In this document: positions 6,463-32,216 of the stretch, one piece after another | How positions within the stretch are numbered: the stretch's first letter is position 1 | Layout of the letters: each line of letters opens with the position of its first letter | Origin: Bryobacterales bacterium | GTDB taxonomy: Bacteria > Acidobacteriota > Terriglobia > Bryobacterales > Bryobacteraceae | Assembly (NCBI GenBank): GCA_947446025.1 | Contig: CANFEY010000018.1 | Coordinates: 1 to 64,000, forward strand | Length of the DNA stretch: 64,000 nucleotides | Reading direction: 5' to 3' | Program-made: the position numbers and the translations under genes | The notes under the pieces: model-generated | What the model saw: the letters and a program-made list of their open reading frames with translations, nothing else | Database searches by the model: none | Told to the model about the DNA's origin: nothing

Positions 6463-7005
6463 CCGCTTCGCCTCTGCATCTTGGACTGTGGAACCATCGG
6501 CGCGATGAATCTCGCGCTGTATAACTTGAAGGCGGAAGAGATCAACGGTCCGGTGACCTTGGTCACGCCGTGCTATCTAATTGTCCCATTCGCCCGGCAC
6601 GCTGCTGTGGGAAGCGGGTCAGATCGCCGATGGAGCCGTCCCCGCCGACGGCAAACCCGCGACTACAGGTGTATTCGCGGCCAGCAAGAAACTCTCCCGC
6701 AGTTGGCGGAAATCGGCTACACGCCGAAGACGTCCTTGTCTTCACCCTTGAGCATCATCGTCTTGGCGTCTTTCAACTTCGCATAGCTGGCGCGCTCTTG
6801 GATGCGGGCGGGAGCGCCGTCGACCATGGCGTGCCATTCGGGCTCCTGCACGATTCAGGTGGATCCGGCAAACGCGTTGGCATTGGCGGCGTGGTCGTCG
6901 TGAGACAGAGCGAAGTAGGTGATGTCGGCCGGCGCGCAGATGTGGATCGAGCACGACGAGACTACGCACAAGAGGTTGACTAAGTCCCCGGTGTTCTACG
7001 ACTAG
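6463..7005 (+). pseudogene. Decayed metallo-beta-lactamase-fold hydrolase with an internal inversion
   Basis: Remnant of an MBL-fold hydrolase resembling secreted N-acyl-homoserine-lactonase-like proteins. The N-terminal part is on the plus strand (LRLCILDCGTI, VTPCYLIV), shifts frame near 6585 to HSPGTLLWEAG, and shifts again near 6690 to QLAEIGYTPK. The metal-binding region is present on the minus strand (about 6735-6935: DITYFALSH, ANANAFAGST, then a stop, EPEWHAMVDG, AKLKDAKTMMLKGED). The C-terminus is on the plus strand again (MWIEHDETTHKRL.. FYD, stop 7003-7005). The usual HxHxDH motif is degraded to SHDDHAA and the rest of the domain is deleted. The TAG abuts the stop codon of the converging ABC permease gene. 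Confidence 0.82.
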
Positions 7006-8457
7006 TTACTCCTCCACATCCGCCGTATCCACCGCGTAATCGGCGAGCCGCACATTCGGTGCCTCCAGCGTATAGCGGAAGTACGCCACCCGCTTCCGCA
7101 CTGTCACCGTCAAGGGCTTCTCGATCTCAGCGGGAGCCAACTCTTTCGCCACGGCTTCGGACAACTCGTAGCCTCGCGTCGCCACAGGATGAAGGCGGAC
7201 GGGGACGGGTCCATACGAATCCGGGACGCCCAGGCCCACGCGGTCCGAAACGAACATGGCGGGGCGGCGGAACGGCAATCGGCAGAAGAACTCGCGGTGA
7301 TCCCAACGCACTGTAGCCCCGCACTGGCCCAGTCCGGGAACAAATACAGGCGTCCCGTCCAGAGGCACGTCGGACGAACCCCCGTCGCCGAATTGCGTGA
7401 GCGAGTAGGTGACCCGCAGGGTAACCGGCGCGTTCTTTGCCGCCTCGAAGAAATCGCGGTCTATCGTCGCGAACTGCACCAGACCCGCCGGAGAAACATC
7501 GATCTTCGTTTGCCCGCGGCGCGTCACGCCGGAAAGTGTCTTGAAGGAGAGGTCCCACCCCTGCACCATCAAATTCCTCGCCGCGGTTCCCTCCACCCGG
7601 ATCGGAAACTTGACCGTCTGCCGATACTTGTTCCGCGCCTGCATAGGCCGCTTCGCACCCGCCTTCGCTTCGGGAGCACCCAGCCTCAATCCGAACTGCT
7701 TGTCCGCCGTGCCGATCAAGTTCGACTGGATCGCAAACGCAGCTTGATCGGGAAAGCTGGCGCTGAGGATGAGACTCGCGACGCATGCCCCAAGCGCGAG
7801 CAACGCGGTGTTGCCGGATCTGCGCAGGCGGTACTGTCGCCAAATCACAAAGCATCCGGTCATGGCGGCCAGCGCAAGGCCCACTCCTACGGAGATCCAC
7901 ACTAAGTCACGCGTGCGGCTGTTTTCCTCCAGGATCGCCGCCAGCACCGCAACGGCCACAGCAGCGGCAGGTAGAAACTGAGCCAGGTTCCTGGTGAGCG
8001 TGGCGATCGCCGTTACCGGCAGCACGAAGACGGCGGTCACCAGCAGCTGGTTCCACAACAGTCCACTCGCCGAGGGCAGCAGCGGCAAGCCATCGGCTGC
8101 GATGATCACGGCCTGCGCGATGAGCAGCGGCACGTTGATGAACGCGGCAATGAACAGCAGCTTTCCCAGCACCAAGCCGGCGCGGCTGTAAGGCCGTGTG
8201 AGCCAGAAGTGCCGATCGCCGGGGAGCGCTTCGGATTGGATGGAGCGCGCGATGAGCAGGCCCCAGACCAGCGGCAGCAACATGCTCAGCGGGGTATCGT
8301 CGCCGAAGGTCGGGCCGCCGCGCTCCTGCAACTGTTCCCACGTCTGCACACCCGAGAAAATCAGGATCAGAATCAACAGCAGCGCGCCGCCGATTTCCAG
8401 GCGCAGGTGCCGCGCGTCTTTGCGAAAAATGTGGAGGGCTTGTTGCAACGTGGTCAT
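7006..8457 (-). CDS. ABC-2 type transporter permease-like membrane protein
   Basis: A 483-residue integral membrane protein. It has a cytosolic N-terminal segment, about six hydrophobic helices in the first 260 residues (first at about 24-40, LLLILILIFSG), then a roughly 200-residue mostly hydrophilic C-terminal domain of unknown fold. It is the last gene of a three-gene operon (regulator, ATPase, permease), 9 bases after the ATPase. GntR(YtrA)-ABC operons of this shape often respond to cell-envelope stress or antibiotics. The transported substrate is not deducible. Confidence 0.75.
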   Translation of the reverse strand: MTTLQQALHIFRKDARHLRLEIGGALLLILILIFSGVQTWEQLQERGGPTFGDDTPLSMLLPLVWGLLIARSIQSEALPGDRHFWLTRPYSRAGLVLGKLLFIAAFINVPLLIAQAVIIAADGLPLLPSASGLLWNQLLVTAVFVLPVTAIATLTRNLAQFLPAAAVAVAVLAAILEENSRTRDLVWISVGVGLALAAMTGCFVIWRQYRLRRSGNTALLALGACVASLILSASFPDQAAFAIQSNLIGTADKQFGLRLGAPEAKAGAKRPMQARNKYRQTVKFPIRVEGTAARNLMVQGWDLSFKTLSGVTRRGQTKIDVSPAGLVQFATIDRDFFEAAKNAPVTLRVTYSLTQFGDGGSSDVPLDGTPVFVPGLGQCGATVRWDHREFFCRLPFRRPAMFVSDRVGLGVPDSYGPVPVRLHPVATRGYELSEAVAKELAPAEIEKPLTVTVRKRVAYFRYTLEAPNVRLADYAVDTADVEE

Positions 8458-8466
8458 GGTGTCTCC

Positions 8467-9366
8467 TTAAGCAGCCAGTTTTTGCGAGGTACGCGCCAGC
8501 GCAATGAAAATGGACCGGAGCGGCATGGGGTTGGCTTCGATGTGCGTGATACCGCGGAACAGCAGCTTGATCTCGCCGATGGTGCGCTCGGGATCATAGT
8601 GCGTCTCGATGAACCGCACCACGGCGGGCGAGGCTTCCGGGCGCAGCCAATGCGCGGGCCACGGCGAGGGCAATGCGGGTTGCTCCAGCGTCACTTCCAT
8701 CTCGCGGAAGCGCGCCGTGAGTGCGGAAAGTTCCTCGCCGAATTCCAGCTTGCCTTGATCGAGGTAGCCGATGTGGCTGGCGAAGCTTTCAATGTCGGCG
8801 AGATCGTGCGAGGAGACCACGATGGAAGTTTCGTGCCCGCATTCGAGCAGCGCCCCAATGAGTTCCTCGCGCGTCAGCGGATCCAGGCCACTGAACGGTT
8901 CGTCCAGGACCAGCAACTTGGGGTTGTATGCGAGCGACGAGGCCAGCATCGCCTTCATCTGCATGCCGCGCGAGAAATGTTTGATCTTGCGGTCGAGCGG
9001 CAGCCGGAACTGTGCCAGCAACTCCGCCGCGCGCGCATCGTCCCATGTGGGGTAGAACGGTTTCAGGTAGTCGAGCAGAAATTGCATCGTCATCCAGCCC
9101 GGCAGGTCCTGGTTTTCGGACACGTAGCCGATGTTCTCGAAGTGCCGCCCCAGCAGCTGCCGCGAATCGATGCCCAACACCCGAGCCTCGCCCGCCGTCG
9201 GCGGATGCAGGTTCATGAGCAGCTTCAACGCCGTCGTCTTACCCGCCCCGTTGGCCCCCAGCAGCGCATAGACGCTGCCTTCGGGCACCGCGAACGTGAG
9301 CTTATCGAGCGCCACATGCTTACGGTACTTCTTCGAGAGCCCTTGCGTAGTGATGACGTCGCTCAT
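8467..9366 (-). CDS. ABC transporter ATP-binding protein
   Basis: A 299-residue CcmA/YtrB-like ATPase. Walker A is GANGAGKTT at 37-45, the Q-loop region is SENQDLPG near 83-90, Walker B LLVLDEP is at 151-157, and the switch His lies in SSHDLADIE. The signature that is normally LSGGQ reads FSRGMQ at 131-136, a real divergence also seen in some YtrB-type exporters. The start codon overlaps the regulator's stop by 4 bases (ATGA), showing tight translational coupling. It should pair with the permease downstream. Confidence 0.88.
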   Translation of the reverse strand: MSDVITTQGLSKKYRKHVALDKLTFAVPEGSVYALLGANGAGKTTALKLLMNLHPPTAGEARVLGIDSRQLLGRHFENIGYVSENQDLPGWMTMQFLLDYLKPFYPTWDDARAAELLAQFRLPLDRKIKHFSRGMQMKAMLASSLAYNPKLLVLDEPFSGLDPLTREELIGALLECGHETSIVVSSHDLADIESFASHIGYLDQGKLEFGEELSALTARFREMEVTLEQPALPSPWPAHWLRPEASPAVVRFIETHYDPERTIGEIKLLFRGITHIEANPMPLRSIFIALARTSQKLAA

Positions 9367-9761
9367 AGCTTCCTCCCATTTTTTCCATCGAGCCGGTACC
9401 AGTGGTCGTGTACGGCAGTGGTGACATCGTCGAGTTCCAGCCCCAGCTTTTTCGCCTGCACGACAAGCTGCTCCAGCTCGGTGCGCAGAAGGTGTCCCCG
9501 CTCCGCCGCCGTAGAGGCGGAAGGCTCGGCGACCACAGTCCCAATCCCCGGCATCACCTGCAGCATCCCCTCCGCGAGCAGCTGCGTGACAACTTTGTGC
9601 GCCGTGTTGGGGTTGATCTTGAGTTCCTTGCTCAGCGCCCGCACCGAAGGAAACGCATCCCCCGGCCGCATCTGGCCCGCAATCACAGCCTTCTTGGCCG
9701 CGTAGACAACCTGCTCATAGATGGAGACGCCAGGTTGAAATGTAAGCCGGAACGGGATCAC
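9363..9761 (-). CDS. GntR-family (YtrA-type) transcriptional regulator
   Basis: A 132-residue protein with an N-terminal winged helix (SIYEQV at 13-18, PSVRALSKELKINPNTA helix-turn-helix region) and a short C-terminal dimerisation helix, the compact YtrA layout. It begins with GTG. The promoter upstream has its -10 inside a palindrome, so the protein probably represses its own operon with the two ABC genes until an unknown signal is sensed. Confidence 0.88.
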   Translation of the reverse strand: MIPFRLTFQPGVSIYEQVVYAAKKAVIAGQMRPGDAFPSVRALSKELKINPNTAHKVVTQLLAEGMLQVMPGIGTVVAEPSASTAAERGHLLRTELEQLVVQAKKLGLELDDVTTAVHDHWYRLDGKNGRKL

Positions 9762-9796
9762 GTGTGTACTATGACACGTAATACAGTAGCCGTCAA
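9759..9796 (-). promoter_or_regulatory. Leaderless-type promoter with overlapping operator for the GntR-ABC operon
   Basis: On the minus strand: TTGACG at 9791-9796 (-35), a 17-base spacer, CATAGT at 9768-9773 (-10), then six bases and the GTG start codon (9759-9761). Transcription would start at or next to the start codon, giving a leaderless message. The -10 is embedded in the imperfect palindrome GTGTCATAGTACAC (9764-9777), itself flanked by ACGTGT/ACACGT arms, a plausible GntR dimer site. Operator role is inference. Confidence 0.6.
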
Positions 9797-9809
9797 GAGA
9801 AAAGTTTTG

Positions 9810-10745
9810 CTACTGCCCAAACCAGGGATGCGGCAGGAACTCACACCCAGCATGATGATGGCGCTGCTCCAAATACGTCTGGATGGCTCGCGACGCCACG
9901 GGATCGTCCGACTGCGCCATCGAGTCGAGGACGTCGCGGAGAGAATTGATCGCATTCGGGTCCTGCGTTGCCGTCAAAACAGCCAAGTTGCGACGGCCCA
10001 TATCGAGCATCGCTCGAATCGCGTCAGGGTCATCCTGAAACAGCTCGTGCGCGTAGAAATCCAACGTCTGCTGACCAGGAGCGCTGCGTTCTCTTTTCGA
10101 ATGGCGTAAGGTGTCGAGCATCCAATGCCTCATGTCGAAGTCACCCGCGAAGTCGGCCCACGTGCCGAAACTCCACTCTGATTCTTGCAGGAAGGCACCC
10201 GCGATTCCGGGAATCTTCCGCTCGAACGCGCCGATCTTTTCCATGAGCTCGTCCACTGACGGGACATCCACCACGCCATTTTGCATGCACCCAAGGAATA
10301 GGCTTCCCAAAGGCTCAGCTGCGGAAGCACGAACCATGTAGCTTGAATGGTCCATCGCCGCCCAGAACGTCTCGGCGTCGCGACTCCACTTGACGAATGA
10401 CCATCGTTCTTCCGGCCATCGATCCATGGCGCGCCGTTCCATCGCGAAGGAAACCGCCAGATCGATGTTGCCTAGAGAAAATTCACCAGCGAGGCGCCCC
10501 AAACGATGTAGCGCAAAAACGGGTTCTGTGCTTCCTGATCCAATCTTGCAACGCTCCCAGACTTTCCAGCAAAAGTCTGCTACCTCGTAGTCGGTCTGCG
10601 TCGCGATCCACTGAATAGAAGGTCGTGCCGCCTCCTCCACTGCCCCATAGGCAGGCGCAGGTGTGGGTAACCCCGAAGTCACTGCCCGAATCAGATTGTT
10701 GGTAGCGCGAATCTTGACCCAGTCCGTTCTACCAATGGGCGGCAT
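9810..10745 (-). CDS. Hypothetical protein, probably 5'-frameshifted
   Basis: A 311-residue soluble, helix-rich protein that I do not recognise; no signal peptide or membrane segment. Codon use looks like a real gene. Oddly, the frame stays open and protein-like for 31 codons upstream of this ATG (to the stop at 10839-10841; e.g. LPHDRWLSCIKALSAIIASD) but contains no start codon. Another frame starts at GTG 10912-10914 behind a strong GGAGGA Shine-Dalgarno and ends after 36 codons at 10804. The simplest reading is one original gene, 10914 to 9810, broken by a single frameshift around 10810-10838. Whether the ATG at 10745 is used is unknown. Confidence 0.5.
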   Translation of the reverse strand: MPPIGRTDWVKIRATNNLIRAVTSGLPTPAPAYGAVEEAARPSIQWIATQTDYEVADFCWKVWERCKIGSGSTEPVFALHRLGRLAGEFSLGNIDLAVSFAMERRAMDRWPEERWSFVKWSRDAETFWAAMDHSSYMVRASAAEPLGSLFLGCMQNGVVDVPSVDELMEKIGAFERKIPGIAGAFLQESEWSFGTWADFAGDFDMRHWMLDTLRHSKRERSAPGQQTLDFYAHELFQDDPDAIRAMLDMGRRNLAVLTATQDPNAINSLRDVLDSMAQSDDPVASRAIQTYLEQRHHHAGCEFLPHPWFGQ

Positions 10746-21411: not shown

Positions 21412-23112
21412 TTAGTGCGGCAGCGGCCAATCGATGACGTAGGAGTAGAACATCACGATCAGGCCGAGCATGGAGGCCAAGAAAATGCTGTGACGCAGAG
21501 TGAAGCGGAAGAGCTTGGCTTCGTCGGAGGACGCCATGCCGGTGGCAGCTGCGGCGACTGCGATGGACTGCAGGGAAATCATCTTGCCCATCACGCCGCC
21601 GGCGGAGTTGGCTGCGGCCATGAGGGTGGGATCGAGGTTGAGCGTTTTCGCCGTGACCACTTGCAGGTTTCCGAAGAGGGCATTGGCGGAGGTGTCGCTC
21701 CCGGTCAGGAACACCGCGAGCCAACCGAGCATGGCGCTGAAGAATGGGAAGATTGCTCCGGTGGCCGCGAAGGCCATACCCATGGTGGCGGTGGCCCCGC
21801 AGAAGTTCAGCAGGTAGGCAAGGCCCAGCACGCTGCCGATAGTCACGAGGGACGTAAAGAGCTTCTTGCCGGTCTCCATCAGAATGCCGACGTAGCTTCC
21901 GAAGGAGAGGCGTAGAACCACTAGCGATGCGAGCGACGCCATCAGACACGCGGTGCCGGAGGCGGCCAGGATGTCGAAGGTGAATCTGGTCTGATCGGGA
22001 GGATAAGGTCCGGGGGTAGCTGTGACTGGAGCGACTTGGACGATGTTGCCAGCCAGGCCGGGCCAATCGAAGCTTCGTGTGGCGGAGACGAGGAACGCGC
22101 CGACGGCGTCGAGCGAATTGGCGAAGAAGTCGAGCGAACCTCCGCGGAACCAACCCTTGATGATCGCGTTGCGGCTGAGGCCGGAGAGCAGAACGAAGAA
22201 TACCAGGAACAGATAAGGAGACCAAGCGACGATCACTTCTCCCATGCTGTGCTTCTTAGGGGCGGCCATCGGGCGGCAATCGGCGAGCTTGAAGCTGTCA
22301 GACGGTTTCCAAACTTTCAGGAGAGCAACCAACGCAAGAATTGAGGCGAGGGCTCCGAGGATGTCCGTGAGTTGCGGACCGACGAAGTTCGATACGAAGT
22401 ATTGGGCGGTGGCGAATGCGATGCCGCAGACGGCGACGGCGGGGAGCACGCCGCTGAGGCCTTTGACTCCGCCCATGACGAGGATGAGGTAGGCGGGAAT
22501 GAACACGGAGATGGGGGCGCAGATGCGGCCGACCCAGGCGCTGAGTTCGAGTTCGTTGAGGCCGGTGATGCGGGCGAGGGTAACGACGGGGATGCCGATG
22601 GAGCCGAACGCGACGGGCGCGGTGTTGGCGAGCAAGCAGATGCCGGCGGCGTAGAAGGGCGCGAAGCCCAGGCCGGTGAGCATCGCGGCGGCGACGGCGA
22701 CGGGGGTTCCGAATCCGGCCGCGCCTTCGATGAAGGCTCCGAAGGAGAACGCGATGAGCAGTGCTTGCAGGCGGCGGTCATCGGTGAGGCCGCCGATGGA
22801 GTCCTTGATGATTTCGAACTTGCCGGTCTTTTCGCAGACCTTATAGAGGACGATGGCCCAGTAAACGATCCAGCCGATGGGGAACATGCCGAAGGCTATG
22901 CCGTAGAGGGTGGAGTTCAGCACCAGGCCGACGGGCATTTGGTACATGAACAGCGCAACCACGGCTGCCGCGCCAAGGCCTGAGAGGGCTGAGATCCAGG
23001 CTGGCTTGCGTTTTACTCCGATCAAGAACAGCAGCACAAAAACGGGCAACGAGGCCACGAGAGCGGAGAGCCACAGGCTGCCGCCGAGCGGAGTGTAATT
23101 TTGAGTCCACAT
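21412..23112 (-). CDS. lldP: L-lactate permease family transporter
   Basis: A 566-residue, 12-14 helix inner-membrane protein of the LctP/LldP family (proton-coupled uptake of L-lactate, D-lactate or glycolate). Family landmarks are the start [40 protein letters not shown] and the C-terminal [14 protein letters not shown] and [14 protein letters not shown] segments. ATG at 23110-23112 is where the family normally starts; the frame remains open further upstream only as antisense of the PIN gene. No lactate dehydrogenase gene is adjacent. Confidence 0.93.
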
Positions 23113-23190
23113 AAAGATACGAGAAGCTATCTTAGCACTCCTCGGGGCGCAGTCCCTGGCCCAAGGGTGATATACTCTGACGCTGGCCTT

Positions 23191-23880
23191 ATGAACGCGC
23201 GTCTCCTGGTCCGATCTCTTGTAGCCGCTGTGTTCAGTGGCGCTACCAAGACGAGCAGTTCCAAGATCGTCGACACCAGTGTCCTGATCGACGGGCGCAT
23301 CGCGGAAATCGCCGAGGCGGGATTTATCGAGGGGCCGCTTCTGATACCGCAGTTCGTCCTGCGTGAGTTGCAGCAAGTGGCCGATTCGGCGGACGGCAGC
23401 AAGCGCATCCGGGGCCGGCGAGGGCTGGACATCCTGCTCCGCCTGCAGAAGATGCCGCAACTGACGGTACGCATCCTCGAAGAGGATTTTCCGAATATCC
23501 GCGAGGTGGACCTGAAGCTACTGGAGTTGGCAAAGGACTACCGTTGTAAGGTCATGACCAACGATTTCAACCTCAACAAGGTCGCGCAAGTGCGCGGCGT
23601 GGAGGTGCTGAACATCAACGCGCTGGCGAACGCAGTGCGGCCAGTGGTGTTGCCGGGGGAAGTGATGCGGGTGGCTATTTTGAGAGACGGCAAGGAGCCG
23701 GGGCAGGGCGTGGCGTACTTGGAGGACGGAACCATGGTGGTGGTGGAAAACGGGCGGAAGATGGTTTCTAGGACCGTGGACGTGACGGTTACCAGCGTAT
23801 TGCAGACGGATGCGGGGAAGATGATCTTCGGCCGTTATGACGACCGCATCCGAGTGGTGCGGGAAGCAGCGGGGGCGTAA
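23191..23880 (+). CDS. PIN-TRAM domain protein (YacL-like, soluble)
   Basis: A 229-residue predicted RNase. The PIN domain (about 24-150) has acidic residues Asp28 and Asp34 ([11 protein letters not shown]) and the distal [10 protein letters not shown]; a TRAM RNA-binding domain follows (about 165-225). Relatives in Firmicutes and Deinococcus (YacL) carry an N-terminal membrane domain that is missing here. TGATATACT (23168-23176) is an extended -10, giving a leader of only about 8 bases. The gene precedes ispD-ispF, the same neighbourhood as yacL in several phyla. Confidence 0.87.
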
Positions 23881-24621: not shown

Positions 24622-25097
24622 CGGAAGTCCGCACGGGCCTAGGCTGGGACACGCATCGGCTGGCTTGGGGCTTGGATCTGATCCTGGGTGGAGTGCGGGT
24701 ACCGAGCGAGCGCGGGCAGTTGGGCCACTCCGACGCGGACGTGTTGTCGCATGCAATCACCGATGCTCTGCTGGGCGCGGCCGCGTTGGGCGACATCGGC
24801 ATGCTGTTCCCGGACACAGATCCGCAGTGGAAGGGCGCGGACAGCGCGGTATTCCTTGCGGAGGCTGTGCGACGGGTGCGTGCGGCAGGGTTCACCATCG
24901 TCAATGTGGATTCAACGGTGATCCTAGAGAAGCCGAAGTTGAAGGATTACCGGCTGACGATTCGTGAAGCGCTGGCGAAGACGGTTGGGATTGATATCGA
25001 CCGAGTGTCGGTGAAGTTCAAGACGGCGGAAGGTGTGGGGCCGGTGGGCGAGTTGCGCTCAAGCGAAGCACAGGCGATTGTAACCATCGCGAGGTGA
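24618..25097 (+). CDS. ispF: 2-C-methyl-D-erythritol 2,4-cyclodiphosphate synthase
   Basis: A 159-residue MEP-pathway enzyme (trimeric, zinc-dependent). Metal ligands Asp11 and His13 are in GWDTHRL, with His45 region in GHSDADVLSHAITDAL, then GDIGMLFPDTDP and the C-terminal KFKTAEGVGPVGE. GTG start overlaps the ispD stop (GTGA), so ispD and ispF are translationally coupled. IspD and IspF act two steps apart, around IspE. Confidence 0.96.
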   Translation: MTEVRTGLGWDTHRLAWGLDLILGGVRVPSERGQLGHSDADVLSHAITDALLGAAALGDIGMLFPDTDPQWKGADSAVFLAEAVRRVRAAGFTIVNVDSTVILEKPKLKDYRLTIREALAKTVGIDIDRVSVKFKTAEGVGPVGELRSSEAQAIVTIAR

Positions 25098-25397
25098 GCA
25101 TGGGCAACGCGCTTGCTCAGCTACGGCTCGGCGCGTGGATCAAGGGCAGCACGGCTAGATTTGCAGGCTCTCCGCTCAGATTCGTTGCGAGGCCAACGTG
25201 GTGTCCACGGTTCTATTGTCGCAACGTCCTCGTTGGAAGCCCCGCTCTCACGAACGGGGCTATCGGAGCACCCCAATGTGTTGCGCACCAGGGGATGTGT
25301 TGCGCATCCCGGGGCTTCCCCTGCCGAACGGCAATAGGGCTGGTTCGGTATCATGTACGGACAGACAAAAGTTGCACCTGCCAGGAGAATTTCAGGT
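25098..25397. other. Regulatory intergenic region before the aromatic operon
   Basis: No gene is supported. It holds a 7-base-stem hairpin (AGCCCCG/CGGGGCT, 25238-25261) that may end the ispDF transcript, a 12-base direct repeat (25276-25306), and TATCAT near 25350 as a possible -10. AGGAG at 25383-25387 serves the LigJ-like gene. Confidence 0.5.
25276..25306 (+). promoter_or_regulatory. Direct-repeat candidate operator of the aromatic operon
   Basis: ATGTGTTGCGCA occurs perfectly twice (25276-25287 and 25295-25306), 19 bases apart, close to two helical turns. It lies about 90-120 bases upstream of the first gene of the aromatic operon, a typical place for an activator or repressor dimer. 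No regulator gene is adjacent; role inferred. Confidence 0.4.
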
Positions 25398-26396
25398 ATG
25401 ATCATCGACATCCACGGCCACGTTAGCGCGCCGGATAAGCTCTACGTTTACAAAGCGAACATACTGTCGCATCGTGGGGCGCATGGGCGGGGCGAGCCGG
25501 GGGCTACGGATGACGATATCCGCGAGGCGTTGAATGCGCCTACGTTCGGCGGCACTTCGCACCTTTCTCAACTCAAAGAGGTCGGTACGGACTTGCAGGT
25601 TATCTCACCGCGGCCGTACCAGATGATGCACAGCGAGCAGGCCAAGGTCGTGCAGTGGTACATCGAAGAGACCAATAAGATCATTGCCCGGCAGACGAAG
25701 CTGTATCCGGATACGTTTCGCGGCGTGTGCGGGTTGCCGCAGACTCCGGGGGTGAGCCCCAAGGAGTACTTGCCGTATTTGGAGAAGCTGGTGAATGAAG
25801 ACGGCTTCGTGGGGTGTTTGCTGAATCCTGATCCGACGGAAGGAACCACGTTTGATACGCCTCCGTTGGGGGACCGGTTCTGGTATCCGTTATACGAAAA
25901 GTTGGTGGAGCTGGATATTCCGGGGCACATTCACTCAGCTGGGTGCCGGTCGGAACGGCTGCCGTATTCGCTGCACTTCATCAATGAAGAGAGCATCGCG
26001 GTGTTGTCACTGCTGAATTCAACGGTGTTCAAGGACTTCCCCACGCTGCGGATTGTCTGTTCGCACGGGGGCGGGGCGATTCCGTATCAATGGGCCCGGT
26101 TTGAGGCGAGCGCGATTCGTCGCGGCATTCAGCGCTTCTCGGAACGCTTGCGCAACATTTACTACGATACGGTCCTGTACAACAAGGAATCGCTGGAGCT
26201 GCTCATCAAGACTGTGGGCGCGGACCGTTGCATGTTCGGCACGGAGCGTCCGGGCGTGGGCACGGTGAAGGATCCGCGCACGGGTCGTTGGCTGGATGAA
26301 ACGCGCTACATTATCGAAGACTTCGAATGGCTGAGCGATGCGGATAAGAAGCTCATTTTCGAAGACACGGCCAAGAAAGTTTTTAAGATCAAGTAA
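25398..26396 (+). CDS. 4-oxalomesaconate hydratase-like amidohydrolase (LigJ-like)
   Basis: A 332-residue amidohydrolase-2 family protein with zinc ligands in DIHGHVSAP (His6, His8), then ISPRPYQMMHSEQ, GCLLNPDP, PPLGDRFWYPLYEKLVELD, HIHSAG, SLHFINEESIA, SHGGGAIPYQ, and DADKKLIFEDTAKKVF. This run of motifs matches LigJ, which hydrates 4-oxalomesaconate to 4-carboxy-4-hydroxy-2-oxoadipate in protocatechuate 4,5-cleavage and gallate degradation. ATG 25398 has AGGAG upstream. It heads a seven-gene same-strand cluster with importer, ring dioxygenase and aldolases, which strongly supports the assignment. Confidence 0.85.
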   Translation: MIIDIHGHVSAPDKLYVYKANILSHRGAHGRGEPGATDDDIREALNAPTFGGTSHLSQLKEVGTDLQVISPRPYQMMHSEQAKVVQWYIEETNKIIARQTKLYPDTFRGVCGLPQTPGVSPKEYLPYLEKLVNEDGFVGCLLNPDPTEGTTFDTPPLGDRFWYPLYEKLVELDIPGHIHSAGCRSERLPYSLHFINEESIAVLSLLNSTVFKDFPTLRIVCSHGGGAIPYQWARFEASAIRRGIQRFSERLRNIYYDTVLYNKESLELLIKTVGADRCMFGTERPGVGTVKDPRTGRWLDETRYIIEDFEWLSDADKKLIFEDTAKKVFKIK

Positions 26397-26409
26397 GGAG
26401 TCCACGTAT

Positions 26410-27462
26410 ATGACCTCCCGTTTGAAGTTCGTTCTTGTGATTGCGTCGTCGCTGGTGGCGTTCAGTTGCGCCAGTGAGGCGCCCGTAGTCGCGCGCAAGA
26501 TCGTGATCAATTACCCGAACAAGAGCGGATCGCAGTGGCCGCTGTTCCTGGCGAAAGAAGGCGGCTTCTATCAGAAGTACGGCCTCGATGTGGAACTGAA
26601 CTTCGGCGTGCATCCGGCGGGTGTGGCGATGCTGGCAAGCAGTCAAGGCCACATGGTGAATTCCTCGCTGGAGCAACTCATGCAGGCGGCTTCGAAGGAT
26701 GGCTCATTGACTTTGGTAGGCAGTTCTCTGAATCGCGGAACGTTCGCGTTGATGGCGAGCAAGAATCTTAAGACGGTGGAGTCGCTTAAGGGCAAGAAGA
26801 TCGCAGTTAGTCAGGTGGGTGATGCCCCGTACGGCTACGTTGTTGCGATCCTGGCAAAAGCGGGAATGAGTGATCGCGACGTGGAATGGATTCCGGTGGG
26901 CCAAGGCGTTGCCGGCCGGGCTGCGGCACTGACCACGGGCCGTGCCGATGCGACCATCCTCACCGCGCCGGCATACTTCAAGCTGGAGGCGGACGGTTAC
27001 AATACGCTGGTCAACCTAGCCGAGCGGGAAGATATCTTTGCATCGACGACGTATCTGATGGCCAAGCGGGATCTCGCGCCCGACACCAAACTAGCTGAGG
27101 CGCTGGTTAAGGCGCACGCGGAAGCCATCAAGACGTTTTATGGTGACAAGGCTGCGGCGATTGCGGCGTATCGCAAGTACGATCCTGAGATTTCACCGGA
27201 AGACGCAGAACGCACCTACGAGTTGTACTCCAAGCCGCAAGCATTTGAGCGTGTCCCGTATGTGCTCAAGGGTGCCGTGGAATCGGTGTTGGCTCAACAA
27301 ACCGGACAACTGGGGGAGCAGCTGAGGGCCTACGACTGGAAGCAAGTGATCGACAACAGCATCGTGGACAAGCTGGTGAAAGAAAACTTCTTCGTGCAGC
27401 TGTTCGGCGACAGTGTGAAAGCGGAGCAGGAGCGGAAGGCTTCGCTGGCATTCGGAAAGTAA
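26410..27462 (+). CDS. ABC importer substrate-binding lipoprotein (SsuA/THI5-like)
   Basis: A 350-residue periplasmic-type binding protein of the NMT1/SsuA fold. It has a lipoprotein signal with lipobox VAFSC (Cys20), then the first-domain motif GSQWPLFLAKEGGFYQKYGLDV and LKGKKIAVSQVG. This family imports sulfonates, taurine, nitrate, pyrimidine precursors and some aromatic acids. Placement between LigJ-like and LigB-like genes suggests an aromatic acid substrate (inference). The ATPase gene starts immediately after its stop. Confidence 0.87.
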   Translation: MTSRLKFVLVIASSLVAFSCASEAPVVARKIVINYPNKSGSQWPLFLAKEGGFYQKYGLDVELNFGVHPAGVAMLASSQGHMVNSSLEQLMQAASKDGSLTLVGSSLNRGTFALMASKNLKTVESLKGKKIAVSQVGDAPYGYVVAILAKAGMSDRDVEWIPVGQGVAGRAAALTTGRADATILTAPAYFKLEADGYNTLVNLAEREDIFASTTYLMAKRDLAPDTKLAEALVKAHAEAIKTFYGDKAAAIAAYRKYDPEISPEDAERTYELYSKPQAFERVPYVLKGAVESVLAQQTGQLGEQLRAYDWKQVIDNSIVDKLVKENFFVQLFGDSVKAEQERKASLAFGK

Positions 27463-28260
27463 GTGGCGGTAAAACTTCAAATCGATCATCTGACCAAGCG
27501 CTACTGGCTGGAGCGCGAGTCCACGCAGGTGCTGGCGTTGAATGACGTCTCGCTGGGCGTGAATGACGGTGAATTCCTCGCTATCGTTGGTCCCAGCGGG
27601 TGCGGCAAGACATCGCTTATGAACATTGTCGCCGGACTGTTGCCTTATGAAGAGGGCACGGTTTCGATTGACGGCAAGCAGGTCCACGGGCCGGGCACGG
27701 ATCGGGCTGTGGTGTTCCAGCATTCAAGTTTGTTGCCCTGGCGCACCATCACAGGCAATGTGCGTTACGGGATGGAGATGCAAAAGCGCTTCGATGAAAC
27801 GACGATGCAGCAGCGCGCGGAGCATTTTCTCAAATTGGTGGGGCTGACGGGTTTCGAGCGGCACTTTCCGGGGGAGCTATCGGGCGGCATGCAACAGCGG
27901 GTGAATCTTGCTCGGGCATTGGCGGCGGACCCTGTGGTGTTGTTGATGGACGAGCCGTTCGCGGCGCTCGATTCGCAGACGCGCGAGTTCATGCAGTCGG
28001 AGTTGCTCAAGATTTGGTCGAAGGCGAAGAAGACGGTGCTGTTCATCACCCACCAGATCAACGAAGCCGTGTACCTTGCGGACCGTGTGGCGGTGATGAG
28101 TTCGCGCCCGGGGCGCTTGAAGGCGATCTTCGACATTCCGTTCAGCCGCCCGCGTACGCTGGCGTTGAAGCGCGATCCGAAGTTCTTGGAGATCGAAGAC
28201 AAGATTTGGCAGTTGATCGAGGAAGAGTCGGACCGCATGGGCATGGTGGTGGAAGTATGA
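27463..28260 (+). CDS. ABC importer ATP-binding protein (SsuB/TauB-like)
   Basis: A 265-residue ATPase with Walker A GPSGCGKT at 43-50, Q-loop VFQHSSLLPW, signature LSGGMQQR, Walker B VVLLMDEPF and switch His in FITHQINEAVYLADRV, the standard SsuB/TauB/NrtD order. Start is GTG right after the binding-protein stop, and its stop overlaps the permease start (ATGA). It energises uptake with the adjacent permease and lipoprotein. Confidence 0.92.
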   Translation: MAVKLQIDHLTKRYWLERESTQVLALNDVSLGVNDGEFLAIVGPSGCGKTSLMNIVAGLLPYEEGTVSIDGKQVHGPGTDRAVVFQHSSLLPWRTITGNVRYGMEMQKRFDETTMQQRAEHFLKLVGLTGFERHFPGELSGGMQQRVNLARALAADPVVLLMDEPFAALDSQTREFMQSELLKIWSKAKKTVLFITHQINEAVYLADRVAVMSSRPGRLKAIFDIPFSRPRTLALKRDPKFLEIEDKIWQLIEEESDRMGMVVEV

Positions 28261-29042
28261 CGGGGCGTCCGCACCAATCGTTCTATCAGCGCTACGAGGG
28301 AGCGATCCTGGGTGGCGGGTCGATTGTGTTGCTGCTCGGTTTGTGGGAAGCGGCGTGGCAGGCGAAAATGATCTCGCCGCTGTTTTTCAGCGGGCCTTCA
28401 GCCATCGCCAAGCAAGCGGTCTACGCCTGGACGCAGGGGAATCTCAAAGGCGATCTGCTGTACAGCGGTACGAATTTCACGCTTGGATTCATTGGCGCGG
28501 CGATTGCGGGCGTTGTGATCGGAATCCTGGTGGGCTGGTACCGGCGGTTGAGGATGTTGGCGGACCCGCTGTTGAATGCGCTCTACGCAACTCCGCGCGT
28601 GGCGATGATTCCGCTGATTCTGATGTGGTTCGGAATCGGCATGTGGTCGAAGGTGTTCATCGTGTTCATCTCGGCGTTCTTTCCGGTGCTGGTGAATACG
28701 GTAGGCGGCATGCGCGCGATTGATCGCGACTTACTGCGCGCGGCGCGGGCGTTTTGCGCGTCGGACTGGCAGATTTTCAAGACGGTTGCGATTCCTGGAT
28801 CGGTGCCGTTTATCTTGACCGGACTGCGGCAGGGCGTGGCGCTTGGATTGATCGGCGTCGTGGTCGGCGAGATGTTCGGCGGCAGCCAGGGCGTTGGTTT
28901 TATGGTGGCGTACGGCGGGCAGACGTTCGCAACGGACACGCTGTTCGTCGGCGTCTTCATCATCGCGGCGGCGGGCATTGTGCTGACGTGGCTGGCAGAG
29001 CGGTTGGAGCGGCGATTTTCGCAGTGGCGGCCTGAGCGCTAG
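28257..29042 (+). CDS. ABC importer permease (SsuC/TauC-like)
   Basis: A 261-residue BPD-type permease with about six transmembrane helices (first near 19-35) and the EAA-loop region MRAIDRDLLRAARAFCASDW preceding PGSVPFILTGLRQG. It couples to the ATPase 27463-28260, with which it overlaps by 4 bases. ATG 28257 is the only start that begins the family domain; the upstream open frame is out-of-frame ATPase gene. Confidence 0.92.
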   Translation: MTGRPHQSFYQRYEGAILGGGSIVLLLGLWEAAWQAKMISPLFFSGPSAIAKQAVYAWTQGNLKGDLLYSGTNFTLGFIGAAIAGVVIGILVGWYRRLRMLADPLLNALYATPRVAMIPLILMWFGIGMWSKVFIVFISAFFPVLVNTVGGMRAIDRDLLRAARAFCASDWQIFKTVAIPGSVPFILTGLRQGVALGLIGVVVGEMFGGSQGVGFMVAYGGQTFATDTLFVGVFIIAAAGIVLTWLAERLERRFSQWRPER

Positions 29043-29050
29043 GAGAGATT

Positions 29051-30040
29051 ATGGCAGACATCGTATTGGGAATCGGCGCGGCGCATGGGCCGTTGCTATC
29101 GACGCCGCCGGAGCAGTGGGATTTGAGGGCGAAGGCGGATCGCGAGAACAAGTCGCATTGGTTCCGCGGCAAGGCGTACGACTTTGAGGCGCTGCTGAAG
29201 GCGCGCGCGCCGGGGTTCGCGGATCAGGTGGCGATTGAAGTGCGCAGGGAACGGCATGCGCGATGCCGCGCGGCGATTGATGTGCTGACCGCTAAATTTC
29301 GCGCAGTGGAGCCGGAAGCCATCGTGATTTTGGGCAATGATCAGCGGGAATTCTTTACAGCGGAGCTGACGCCGTCGATCACCGTGTACCGCGGCAAGGA
29401 GATCCTCAATGTCCAGCATATGCACGAGACCTCGCCGGGGCTGAACATCGCGGAGCCTGGAAATGCGCCGGAGCAGGGAATCACATACCCCGGCTCACCG
29501 GAGTTCGCGGACCATATTTTGCAGTCGCTCAATGGCACCTTTGATCTGGCGCAGTCTGACACAACTCCGCAGAATTCGATCCGACATGGGATTCCGCACG
29601 CGTTCGGATTCCTGTATCACACGTTGCTGCATGGAGCGCCGCCACCGAGTGTGCCGGTAATTTTGAATGTCCACTTTGCGCACAACGTGCCGAAGACGGC
29701 GCGCATTTTAGAGTTGGGGCGCGCATTACAAAAGGCGATCAAGAGTTACACCGGGTACAAGCGCGTCGCGATGATGGCGTCGGGCGGACTGAGCCACTTC
29801 GTTGTGGACGAGGCACTGGACCAGAAGGTTGTCCGGGCGATGGAGACGGGCGATGAATCCGCGCTGCTGGAGATTCCAGAGAACGTCTTCAAGGTGGGTA
29901 CGGCGGAAATCAAGAATTGGTTCGCTGTCATTTCCGCGATGAATGCTGAGGGGCGCAAGTATCATTCCGTGGATTACGTGCCGTGTTACCGCTCGGAAGC
30001 GGGCACGGGCAACGGCATGGGCTTTGGGTACTGGGAGTGA
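29051..30040 (+). CDS. Class III extradiol ring-cleavage dioxygenase (LigB/DesZ/gallate-type)
   Basis: A 329-residue LigB-superfamily protein that would use Fe(II) and O2 to open a dihydroxylated or trihydroxylated aromatic ring. The first metal His is in GAAHGPLL (His12), a second candidate in NVQHMHETSPG, followed by ILGNDQREFF, RHGIPHAFGFLYHTLLHG and the GGLSHFVVDE catalytic-type region. It lacks an attached LigA domain, and no separate ligA is nearby, which recalls the single-chain 3-O-methylgallate and gallate enzymes (partial resemblance). With LigJ- and LigK-like neighbours the expected product is 4-oxalomesaconate, making gallate a good candidate substrate. Confidence 0.8.
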   Translation: MADIVLGIGAAHGPLLSTPPEQWDLRAKADRENKSHWFRGKAYDFEALLKARAPGFADQVAIEVRRERHARCRAAIDVLTAKFRAVEPEAIVILGNDQREFFTAELTPSITVYRGKEILNVQHMHETSPGLNIAEPGNAPEQGITYPGSPEFADHILQSLNGTFDLAQSDTTPQNSIRHGIPHAFGFLYHTLLHGAPPPSVPVILNVHFAHNVPKTARILELGRALQKAIKSYTGYKRVAMMASGGLSHFVVDEALDQKVVRAMETGDESALLEIPENVFKVGTAEIKNWFAVISAMNAEGRKYHSVDYVPCYRSEAGTGNGMGFGYWE

Positions 30041-30042
30041 GC

Positions 30043-30690
30043 ATGACGTACATTGATCGCCTGCTGCGGATGGATTCGTGCGCGGTTTCGGATGCGCTGG
30101 ACAAGCTTGGGCTGACTGGCTCAGTCACGGGGATCGGGCGGGTGTCGACCGACCAGCGCATTGCGGGGCGAGTGCGCACGGTGAAGATGGATCGCGCGGA
30201 GGGGCGCAGCAATACGCGGCACCTGTGCAGCACGGCGATTGAGGCGTCGGACGCGGGGGACATCATCGTGTGCGAGCAGCGCACGGGGCTGGACGCGGCG
30301 TGTTGGGGCGGGAACTTGACCATCGGGGCGCAGATGCGCGGCGTGGCGGGGGCGATCATTGAGGGGCCTGCTCGGGATATCGATGAGAGCCGGCAGCTTG
30401 ATTTTCCGGTGTTCGCGCGCAGTATCACGGGACGCACGGCGCGGGGGCGCATTGTAGAAGTTGCGACGGGGGAGCCGATTCTGGTCGGCGATGTGACAGT
30501 GCATCCGCTGGACTACGTTATCGCCGATGCAAGCTCGGTTGTGTTCATTGCGCAGGCTGAAATCGAACGTGTTCTGGAGGCTGCCGAAAATATCTGGCAA
30601 CGCGAGTCCTTGATGGCGCAGGCGCTGCGCGAGGGCACGCCGATTAGCCAGGTGATGGGCACCAACTACGAACACATGTTGAAGGGGTAG
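30043..30690 (+). CDS. RraA-like HMG/CHA aldolase (LigK-like), copy 1
   Basis: A 215-residue RraA-fold protein of the class II pyruvate aldolase type (4-hydroxy-4-methyl-2-oxoglutarate / 4-carboxy-4-hydroxy-2-oxoadipate aldolase). The active-site pattern is present: ACWGGNLTIGAQMRG followed by GAIIEGPARDIDE, with the Arg-Asp pair that binds metal and substrate. It starts 2 bases after the dioxygenase stop, so it is co-transcribed. Expected reaction: CHA to pyruvate and oxaloacetate. Confidence 0.83.
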   Translation: MTYIDRLLRMDSCAVSDALDKLGLTGSVTGIGRVSTDQRIAGRVRTVKMDRAEGRSNTRHLCSTAIEASDAGDIIVCEQRTGLDAACWGGNLTIGAQMRGVAGAIIEGPARDIDESRQLDFPVFARSITGRTARGRIVEVATGEPILVGDVTVHPLDYVIADASSVVFIAQAEIERVLEAAENIWQRESLMAQALREGTPISQVMGTNYEHMLKG

Positions 30691-30693
30691 GAA

Positions 30694-31350
30694 ATGGCAA
30701 CGGATTCGAATGTAGAGCGGGCGTCGCGCTTGGACACGACCGCAATTAGTGATGCGATGGATAGGCTCGGGATTGCGGGGCAATGCCTGGGCATCAAGCC
30801 GTTGGAACACAAGTTCCGGCTGACGGGGCGCGCGTTCACGATTCTCTACGGGCCTTCCGCGTCGCCTTCGGGCACGGTGGGCGACTATATCGACGATGTG
30901 GAGCCGGGCGGGATTGTGGTACTGGACAACGGCGGGCGCGCGGACGCCACGGTGTGGGGCGACATTCTCACTTGGTGCGCGCATGAGCGGCGCATCGGCG
31001 GCACGGTGATTGACGGGGCTTGCCGCGATACGCATCTGGCGCACCAACTGGCGTATCCGATTTTCAGCCGCAGCTATTCTATGCGCACGGGCAAGGATCG
31101 CGTGCAGGTGGAGGAGATGGGCGGGACGGTGAACATCGGCGACGCGCGCTGCGACGCGGGCGACATTCTGCGCGGCGATTCGGATGGCGTGGTGGTGATC
31201 CCAAAATTGCATGAAACCGCCATTCTGGATGCGGCGGAGCAGATCGATGCGGTGGAAAATGAGATCCGGCGCGCGGTGCAGCAGGGTATGACACTTCGGC
31301 AGGCTCGCGAGCAGCACGGGTATCACTCCTTGCAGACGCGGAAGAAGTAG
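30694..31350 (+). CDS. RraA-like HMG/CHA aldolase (LigK-like), copy 2
   Basis: A 218-residue paralogue of the preceding gene, 3 bases downstream, also ending the operon. Its active site reads VWGDILTWCAHERRIGG and GTVIDGACRDTHLA, the canonical GDxxxxxA..RG and RD pair. The two copies differ widely, so they are old paralogues. They may form a hetero-oligomer or handle different C4-branched oxo acids; which is the true CHA aldolase is not decidable from sequence. Confidence 0.82.
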   Translation: MATDSNVERASRLDTTAISDAMDRLGIAGQCLGIKPLEHKFRLTGRAFTILYGPSASPSGTVGDYIDDVEPGGIVVLDNGGRADATVWGDILTWCAHERRIGGTVIDGACRDTHLAHQLAYPIFSRSYSMRTGKDRVQVEEMGGTVNIGDARCDAGDILRGDSDGVVVIPKLHETAILDAAEQIDAVENEIRRAVQQGMTLRQAREQHGYHSLQTRKK

Positions 31351-31361
31351 CTAAGCCATGG

Positions 31362-32216
31362 TTAAGACGAAGTGGTCAAGCCGAAGTTAATGTCGACGGC
31401 GGGGGCGGAGTGGGTGATGGAGCCGCTGGAGAGGAAGTCGGCGCCGGTCTCGGCGTAAGCTCGGGCGTTGTCGAGTGTGATACCGCCGGAGAGTTCCACG
31501 GTGACGGCGTCGCCGTGGGCGGAGCGGATGTGGGTGATCCACTCGCGGGCTTCGGCGGGGGTCAGGTTGTCCAGCAGAAGGCACGTGGCTCCATGCGCGA
31601 GTGCTTCATCGAGTTCGGCTCGGGTACGGACTTCGATTTCCACCAACACGCCGGCGTCGCGGGTTTTTTCGAGCGCGGCGCGGACGCTTCCTGCGGCAGT
31701 GATGTGATTGTTCTTGATCAGGATCGCGTCGAAGAGGCCTTGGCGGTGGTTGGTGGCTCCTCCGGCGGCGGCGGCTTGTTTTTCCAGGCGGCGGAGGCCG
31801 GGAGTGGTTTTGCGCGTGTCCAGAATTTTGCAGCGCGTGCCTTGCATGAGTCCGGCGTAGGCGCTTGCCGCGGTGGCTACGCCGCTGAGGCGTTGGACGA
31901 AGTTGAGGGCGGTGCGTTCGCCGGTGAGCAGCGCTCTGGCGGGGCCTTGGACTTCGGCGATGACGTCTCCTGATTTCAGGCGCGCGCCGGATTCGTGCAG
32001 CAGTTCGACTTCACATTTACGGGGCGCGATAGCGTCGAAGATGAGGGGGAGCAATTCAATGCCGGCGAGCGTGAGGTCTTGCTTGGCCACCATGCGACCG
32101 GTTGCGCGCGCGTCGGCGTGGACGGTGAAGAAAGTGGTGATGTCGCCGGTGCCGATGTCTTCTTCGAGCGCTCGGCGGACGGCGTCGTGGATCTGGGGAT
32201 GGGAGACGTCGAACAT
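31362..32216 (-). CDS. nadC: Nicotinate-nucleotide pyrophosphorylase (carboxylating)
   Basis: A 284-residue quinolinate phosphoribosyltransferase, the step that makes nicotinate mononucleotide in de novo NAD synthesis. It has the EEDIGTGDIT N-terminal motif, TALNFVQRLSGVAT, DTRKTTPGLR, GGATNHRQGL and the C-terminal LSGGITLDN region with LSSGSITHSAPAVDI, all typical. It lies 15 bases downstream of nadA in the same direction. nadB, needed to make iminoaspartate, is not in the window. Confidence 0.95.
   Translation of the reverse strand: MFDVSHPQIHDAVRRALEEDIGTGDITTFFTVHADARATGRMVAKQDLTLAGIELLPLIFDAIAPRKCEVELLHESGARLKSGDVIAEVQGPARALLTGERTALNFVQRLSGVATAASAYAGLMQGTRCKILDTRKTTPGLRRLEKQAAAAGGATNHRQGLFDAILIKNNHITAAGSVRAALEKTRDAGVLVEIEVRTRAELDEALAHGATCLLLDNLTPAEAREWITHIRSAHGDAVTVELSGGITLDNARAYAETGADFLSSGSITHSAPAVDINFGLTTSS

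Follow-up and report, generated by a model that had tools for sequence, protein, structure and literature searches.

The closest described counterpart of the operon considered here is the locus for 5,5′-dehydrodivanillate (DDVA) catabolism in the lignin-degrading bacterium Sphingobium SYK-6, which contains ligZ, two RraA genes, ligY and ligXa. In the accessible part of one report ligZ is SLG_07720 and ligY is SLG_07750 (PMC12997858); in the literature, as far as available, LigZ and LigY act on the biaryl OH-DDVA and on its cleavage product. Further down the pathway, 4-carboxy-2-hydroxypenta-2,4-dienoate (CHPD) was proposed to be hydrated to 4-hydroxy-4-methyl-2-oxoglutarate (HMG) and then cleaved to two pyruvates; the available sections of that report list the hydration in SYK-6 as 'NI' (not identified) and name an HMG aldolase for the step after it (PMC12673573). 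A second described system, the gallate pathway with DesB and LigJ, has the superfamilies LigB, Amidohydro_2 and RraA in common with our operon. We analysed a stretch of 64 000 nt from a Bryobacterales bacterium (contig CANFEY010000018.1 of assembly GCA_947446025.1, positions 1 to 64 000; hereafter the window), in which seven + strand genes at 25398-31350 were read in the original prediction as a gallate degradation operon with its own importer.

We assigned two loci, L132 and L133, to SYK-6 by a 100% LigY match (L, G and C numbers denote loci, genomes and contigs; Y and Z denote LigY-type and LigZ-type genes or proteins). In L132 the genes are consecutive: ligZ (6825-7832), RraA1 (7859-8533), RraA2 (8533-9201) and ligY (9214-10212); from the tags of ligZ and ligY we infer SLG_07730 and SLG_07740 for the two RraA genes. 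Judged by sequence, the window operon is this four-gene module joined to an importer of the TauT/SsuABC type; a pathway described in a single lignin degrader is here arranged in a new way. The window homologues are 41% (Z), 55% (RraA1), 61% (RraA2) and 55% (Y) identical to those of SYK-6 and follow the order Y, importer, Z, RraA1, RraA2. While SYK-6 uses the DdvT/DdvK system, according to the available part of PMC6874591, the window has an ATP-binding cassette (ABC) importer instead; and while the SYK-6 locus has ligXa, the window's genome has no match to the LigXa_C profile.

Given the placement of the first gene with LigY and not LigJ, the placement of the fifth with LigZ and not LigB/DesB, the consecutive occurrence of the same four families in SYK-6 and the recurrence of Y, Z and RraA genes together, it is likely that this is a meta-cleavage operon of the LigZ-LigY type. 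In the pathway we propose, the TauT-family importer would take up an aromatic acid that is already catecholic, and the LigZ-type dioxygenase, whose family is shown, would open the ring beside a bulky substituent. As in SYK-6, the LigY-type metal-dependent hydrolase may then split the ring-fission product into the carboxylic acid of the substituent and 2-hydroxypenta-2,4-dienoate; with a substrate similar to the one in SYK-6, the dienoate would carry a carboxyl group at C4 (CHPD). The RraA pair would turn the dienoate into pyruvate, with one or both proteins acting as class II pyruvate aldolases and one possibly as a hydratase. The claim that the operon serves aromatic ring cleavage and brings along an importer is thereby supported, and the operon may represent a compact acidobacterial cassette that combines uptake and breakdown of lignin- or tannin-type aromatics.

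The hydrolase and dioxygenase genes

The first gene (25398..26396, + strand) encodes a 332-aa amidohydrolase-superfamily protein, earlier taken for a LigJ-like hydratase. A phmmer search of PDB gave SYK-6 LigY, the OH-DDVA meta-cleavage product hydrolase, as the best match (E-value 8e-117 vs. 2e-66 for LigJ). In a tree of 34 rows the protein fell into a LigY clade of 30 rows together with SYK-6 LigY and LigY2, the second SYK-6 copy, while a LigJ clade of four rows included a copy from contig C8 of this same genome; each clade had support of 100/100. The identification as LigJ was ruled out by the ranking and by the tree, and the protein is of the LigY type, with C-C hydrolase activity predicted from the family. 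Residues His6, His8, His179 and Glu283, which we take to be the metal-ligand positions of LigY, are identical in all four aligned LigY rows. The genuine LigJ orthologue of this genome is located at C8:85274 and is 66% identical to SYK-6 LigJ. SYK-6 has a further cluster of this kind ∼1.3 Mb from its first one, in which the LigY, LigZ, RraA1 and RraA2 genes are accompanied by a third RraA gene.

The fifth gene (29051..30040, + strand) encodes a 329-aa class III extradiol dioxygenase. The LigB superfamily named for it held up, the LigB/DesB family did not: in a tree of 77 rows the protein was placed in a 69-row group with SYK-6 LigZ (support 95/94), outside of which were SYK-6 LigB, a DesB-like protein and the C81 and C3 proteins of this genome. 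A long-branch protein from the genome's own contig C99 was also inside the LigZ group, its placement being unsure. We assign the protein to the LigZ family, its activity being predicted; a role as gallate or protocatechuate dioxygenase was rejected on the basis of the tree and the alignment columns. The gallate dioxygenase candidate of this genome is located at C3:33700 and matches DesB with an E-value of 4e-181, so gallate cleavage has a separate gene elsewhere in the genome. Only two DesB sequences (best E-value 5.7e-9) were above threshold when the fifth protein was compared with PDB by sequence. Its AlphaFold model (pLDDT 93.3), searched against PDB with Foldseek, also had DesB as best match (E-value 2.2e-15), along with LigAB and MhpB, with identities of at most 21% in the best twelve rows.

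The comparison of dioxygenase families and the mapping of active-site residues, proposed along with the original prediction, not only led to the LigZ group but also revealed a deviation in the putative iron site. In the alignment columns His12, Gln98, His183, His249 and Glu286 of the window protein correspond to His12, His61, His127, His195 and Glu242 of LigB and to His12, His59, His124, His192 and Glu239 of DesB. The Fe ligands of DesB are His12, Asn57, His59 and Glu239, and its catalytic histidines His124 and His192, according to the available part of PMC3962378. Thus, His12 and Glu286 of the His-His-Glu site are kept, His183 and His249 align with the catalytic histidines, and Gln98 occupies the position of the second iron-binding His; around this position DesB and LigB read NDH, whereas the window protein and SYK-6 LigZ read NDQ. 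As SYK-6 LigZ has the equivalent Gln, most of the LigZ family appears to depart from His-His-Glu. Among the 68 LigZ-type rows aligned, where the paralogue on the genome's own contig C1 is counted twice, this position was Gln in 60 and His in 8; all eight His rows are from Actinomycetota, as is a Rhodococcus row (L110) with Gln. Glu100, missing from LigB and DesB, was invariant (68/68). This family includes a characterised enzyme, LigZ, and the presence of Gln in place of an iron-binding His bears on the question of how much of the facial triad is needed.

The C1 paralogue (C1:81388-83434, i.e. L153:6389-8435, − strand) is a second LigZ-type dioxygenase, 41% identical to the one in the window and adjoining a second NMT1 binding protein (51%); the 20 kb around it gave no match at E-value 1e-6 to Y, the ATPase or the permease. 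On contig C99 (C99:192-2066, L026) an RraA gene is followed by the gene of the 389-aa LigB-family protein on the very long branch.

The pair of RraA genes

The HMG/4-carboxy-4-hydroxy-2-oxoadipate (CHA) aldolase family has two catalytic motifs, according to the available part of PMC5065237. The sixth and seventh window genes, RraA1 (30043..30690) and RraA2 (30694..31350), both on the + strand, have the RraA/HMG-CHA-aldolase fold by Pfam, in agreement with the superfamily originally named for them. Against the LigK equivalog model TIGR02798 they scored 71.5 and 74.6 bits, below the cut-off of 304.5. LigK of Pseudomonas putida (PDB 3NOJ) has the fold and the R-D motif in common with both but is distant from the pair (E-values 2.4e-10 and 1.9e-12); by eye, the RraA gene of contig C99 is more LigK-like. 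The catalytic R-D motif of LigK-type aldolases is present in variant forms, G-X20-R-D-X2-E in RraA1 of the window (G-X20-R-D-X2-E/D in 62/62 RraA1 rows) and D-X20-R-D in RraA2 (52/53 rows); rows had been sorted into the two classes by which window protein they matched best, with identity limits of 38 and 45%, and the motif split is therefore not fully independent of that sorting. We take the two forms to be the two known variants. RraA genes of a third kind (28 rows, mostly E-X20-R-D by eye) were observed in some loci, including those of Burkholderiales, of Actinomycetota and the second SYK-6 cluster.

By these sequence features, the pair is best described as two separate RraA subfamilies going together; the notion of a plain doubled aldolase was set aside on account of the distinct motif variants in RraA1 and RraA2 rows. 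The pair is a candidate for the hydration, the aldol cleavage or both, after LigY. Hydration comes into consideration since this is the step listed as not identified in SYK-6, where the pair is located between ligZ and ligY. Travelling with LigY and LigZ across phyla, the RraA genes would be direct candidates for the hydration or for the step that follows. A stronger proposal, with RraA1 and RraA2 as obligate partners (perhaps a single heteromer) for both dienoate hydration and cleavage to two pyruvates, alongside a LigZ family with a His-Gln-Glu iron site, appears improbable to us at present. Were it true, the biphenyl pathway of SYK-6 would be complete, and an RraA-fold hydratase would be, to our knowledge, the first. 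Neither the RraA pair nor the LigZ Gln was described in the published literature we searched, although coverage was partial and this is not a proof that they are unpublished.

Recurrence of the module in other genomes

We surveyed 87 loci, every one selected for having Y. The 80 loci taken from genome contigs were the top-ranking ones among at least 554 relatives, hence loci as distant as SYK-6 are under-sampled, and one or two loci are repeated (L022 and L059, both of 62 726 bases, appear to be one contig, as do L029 and L156, both of 9114 bases). Z was present in 58 of these loci, RraA1 in 60 and RraA2 in 52; both RraA genes occurred together in 52, and in 50 of these RraA1 was directly followed by RraA2. 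The module was seen in Acidobacteriota, Chloroflexota, Actinomycetota and Pseudomonadota. On annotated plasmids of Polymorphobacter and Aminobacter we observed Y, Z, two RraA genes and a gene annotated as HMG or CHA aldolase one after another, preceded immediately by the gene of a flavin enzyme.

The full order, from Y through the substrate-binding protein, ATPase, permease and Z to RraA1 and RraA2, is repeated in L029 at 81-91% identity and was also found on a contig of G187; conservation of this seven-gene order in relatives is more than chance. Among 23 genomes of the genus, the 10 with first-tier Z (67-100% identity) were also the 10 with first-tier Y (73-100%; the Y of G660 is divided between contig ends), a co-occurrence with a Fisher P-value of 8.7e-7 if shared ancestry is ignored. 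For 13 relatives with Z absent or distant in the stretch, some of which appear to be genus members again, Z was detected in all 13 genomes, in 11 of them at ≥66% identity. Second-tier copies of Z and Y are side by side in G651, G653, G654, G659 and G660.

Some loci carry additional genes. In L030 (2217-9922) and L032 (2527-9911) genes for aconitase large and small subunits, an ornithine-cyclodeaminase-like and an M24-peptidase-like protein lie upstream of Y, importer, RraA1 and RraA2. A Meth_synt_2 gene (cobalamin-independent methionine-synthase-like), with a possible role related to methyl groups, is located between Y and Z or kilobases before Z in L044 (11048-12187), L045 (11038-12144; assigned by clustering) and L158 (4138-5262).

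Substrate and alternative explanations

The reading as a LigZ-LigY-type operon has to be weighed against several observations that do not favor it. A LigY-type gene was found in only 3 of the 247 genomes of a phylum sample, two of them from this genus (at an E-value of 1e-30 or better there were matches in four genomes, one of the LigJ type), so such a gene is rare in this sample. Within the stretches examined, some of which end early, neither RraA gene was present in 27 of the 87 Y loci, and Y was alone in 8 of the 87. On plasmids of Acidovorax and Diaphorobacter the neighbours of a distant Z (35-36%) are amidohydrolases of other kinds and an aldolase of the citrate-lyase family, and no RraA gene is listed near this Z. 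The aconitase-type genes upstream of Y, identified by Pfam in L032 and by clustering in L030, could be the hydratase instead. As to the ends of the pathway, the LigXa_C profile had no match in G187 and G668, which with the present genome make up the three full-operon genomes, and in the present genome the best Rieske match to LigXa was at 32% in the N-terminal half only. LigXa_C matches were found in 8 of the 23 genus genomes, three strong (151-165 bits) and five weak (30-33 bits); the genomes with strong matches (G650, G658 and G667, loci L188, L187 and L189) are without first-tier Y and Z, and five Y/Z genomes have the weak ones. It follows that LigXa-family oxygenases in this genus also serve something else. 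The best LigW match in the window's genome, on its contig C34, was weak (28.8% identity over 285 aa). With neither LigXa_C nor a convincing LigW, a DDVA-like substrate would be without its usual front and back end.

The three compact-operon genomes, without LigXa_C, thus seem to import a catechol acid that is already formed. Rather than gallate it is probably a catechol acid substituted at position 3, for instance a carboxylated biaryl. A gallate operon in the sense of the original prediction (DesB/GalA-like dioxygenase, LigJ hydratase, doubled CHA aldolase and gallate importer) would agree with the superfamilies, with DesB as the sole PDB sequence match of the dioxygenase above threshold and with the presence of CHA aldolases among RraA proteins. 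Yet the trees put the first and the fifth proteins into clades separate from those of LigJ and DesB, and the genome has a DesB-type enzyme, a LigJ and the C99 pair of an RraA and a LigB-family gene on other contigs, which makes the gallate operon very improbable. An OH-DDVA-like lignin biaryl as substrate we regard as rather doubtful. Complete catabolism of DDVA, with demethylase and decarboxylase being unrelated enzymes encoded elsewhere in the genome, is unlikely: the four-gene core is common to the SYK-6 DDVA locus and five Y/Z members of the genus have Rieske genes with weak LigXa_C matches, in G662 directly after Z, but neither LigXa_C in the three full-operon genomes nor a good LigW candidate was found and the window LigY and LigZ are on other branches than those of SYK-6. 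The substrate may instead be a smaller acyl- or alkyl-substituted catechol acid, only the enzyme chemistry being common to the DDVA pathway; a tentative option, it agrees with the presence of the module in four phyla and with the variety of oxygenase genes near Y (Rieske in 28, FAD hydroxylases in 12 and HpaB-like in 7 of 89 loci; one representative of each family was checked with Pfam, the Rieske one carrying LigXa_C). The biaryl substrates given for LigZ and LigY in the available literature speak against it. We know of no other characterised LigZ or LigY.

It is also quite possible, if somewhat short of an even chance, that RraA1 and RraA2 are redundant aldolases and that an unlinked enzyme hydrates the dienoate. 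Both proteins keep variants of the R-D motif, aconitase-type genes are found ahead of Y in L032 and, as assigned by clustering, L030, and a hydratase of the mannonate-dehydratase type was proposed in Paenibacillus, with an HMG aldolase listed for SYK-6, in the available part of PMC12673573. Simple redundancy is made less likely by the different motif variants of the RraA1 and RraA2 rows and by the further RraA genes of the third kind.

The importer

Returning to the operon of the LigZ-LigY type, its second, third and fourth genes encode an NMT1/SsuA-like substrate-binding protein (26410..27462), a TauB/SsuB-like ATPase with a GTG start (27463..28260) and a TauC/SsuC-like permease (28257..29042), all on the + strand. 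The binding protein scored 79.3 bits with Pfam NMT1 (cut-off 20.5), and assignment of the three subunits is at the family level only. All three were under the curated NCBIfam cut-offs (in turn 6 of 6 models, the 25 listed of 188 matched, and 12 of 12). TauT/SsuABC importers, including OphFGH, have an NMT1 binding protein, a TauC-like permease and a TauB-like ATPase as in the window, whose subunits differ by scoring under every NCBIfam cut-off listed. An SsuABC-type importer tied to aromatic degradation had been considered unusual; there is precedent, as SsuABC and the phthalate importer OphFGH are named among TauT-family importers of aromatic-type compounds in the available part of PMC3223731.

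A binding-protein gene adjoins a LigZ-type gene on the genome's own contig C1 and in G187, G654 and G662; in G662 the gene directly after Z is a Rieske gene with LigXa_C matches. In a Burkholderiales metagenome-assembled genome (MAG; L075) genes for the binding protein, ATPase, permease, Z and RraA1 are consecutive. A tie between importer and pathway is plausible and recurrent, not unique.

Operon boundaries and genomic neighborhood

Profile searches confirmed the presence of seven same-strand genes of the superfamilies originally claimed (Amidohydro_2, NMT1 binding protein, ABC ATPase, BPD permease, LigB and two RraA-like). The tight spacing was confirmed as well (13, 0, −4, 8, 2 and 3 bases); instead of two overlaps there is one, of 4 bases, between the ATPase and permease genes, and instead of 25276 the first coding sequence most likely starts at 25398, with an in-frame ATG at 25353 as a possible alternative. 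No Rfam match at gathering scores was found in 24900-31500; in the operon region nothing sigma-70-like was seen in a promoter scan and terminator-like sites were at chance level only, so these scans do not define where the operon starts and stops.

The window belongs to contig C18 of a 4.43 Mb genome in 120 contigs (G000) of a soil and freshwater bacterium; most of the nearest relatives carry the label Bryobacterales, Bryobacteraceae or Terriglobia. By eye, we take the upstream flank to be ispF followed by a stretch without a clear gene, and the downstream flank to be a convergent nadC-like gene. Upstream of the ispD/ispF-like genes, a lactate-permease-like transporter is recognizable by eye on the − strand (21412-23460). 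The record of locus L028 (CALQCC020000060.1) is titled as a Bordetella parapertussis MAG, a label that looks wrong; its operon is 86-97% identical to that of the window, permease excluded (Y 97%, binding protein 92%, ATPase 97%, Z 86%, RraA1 92% and RraA2 93%).

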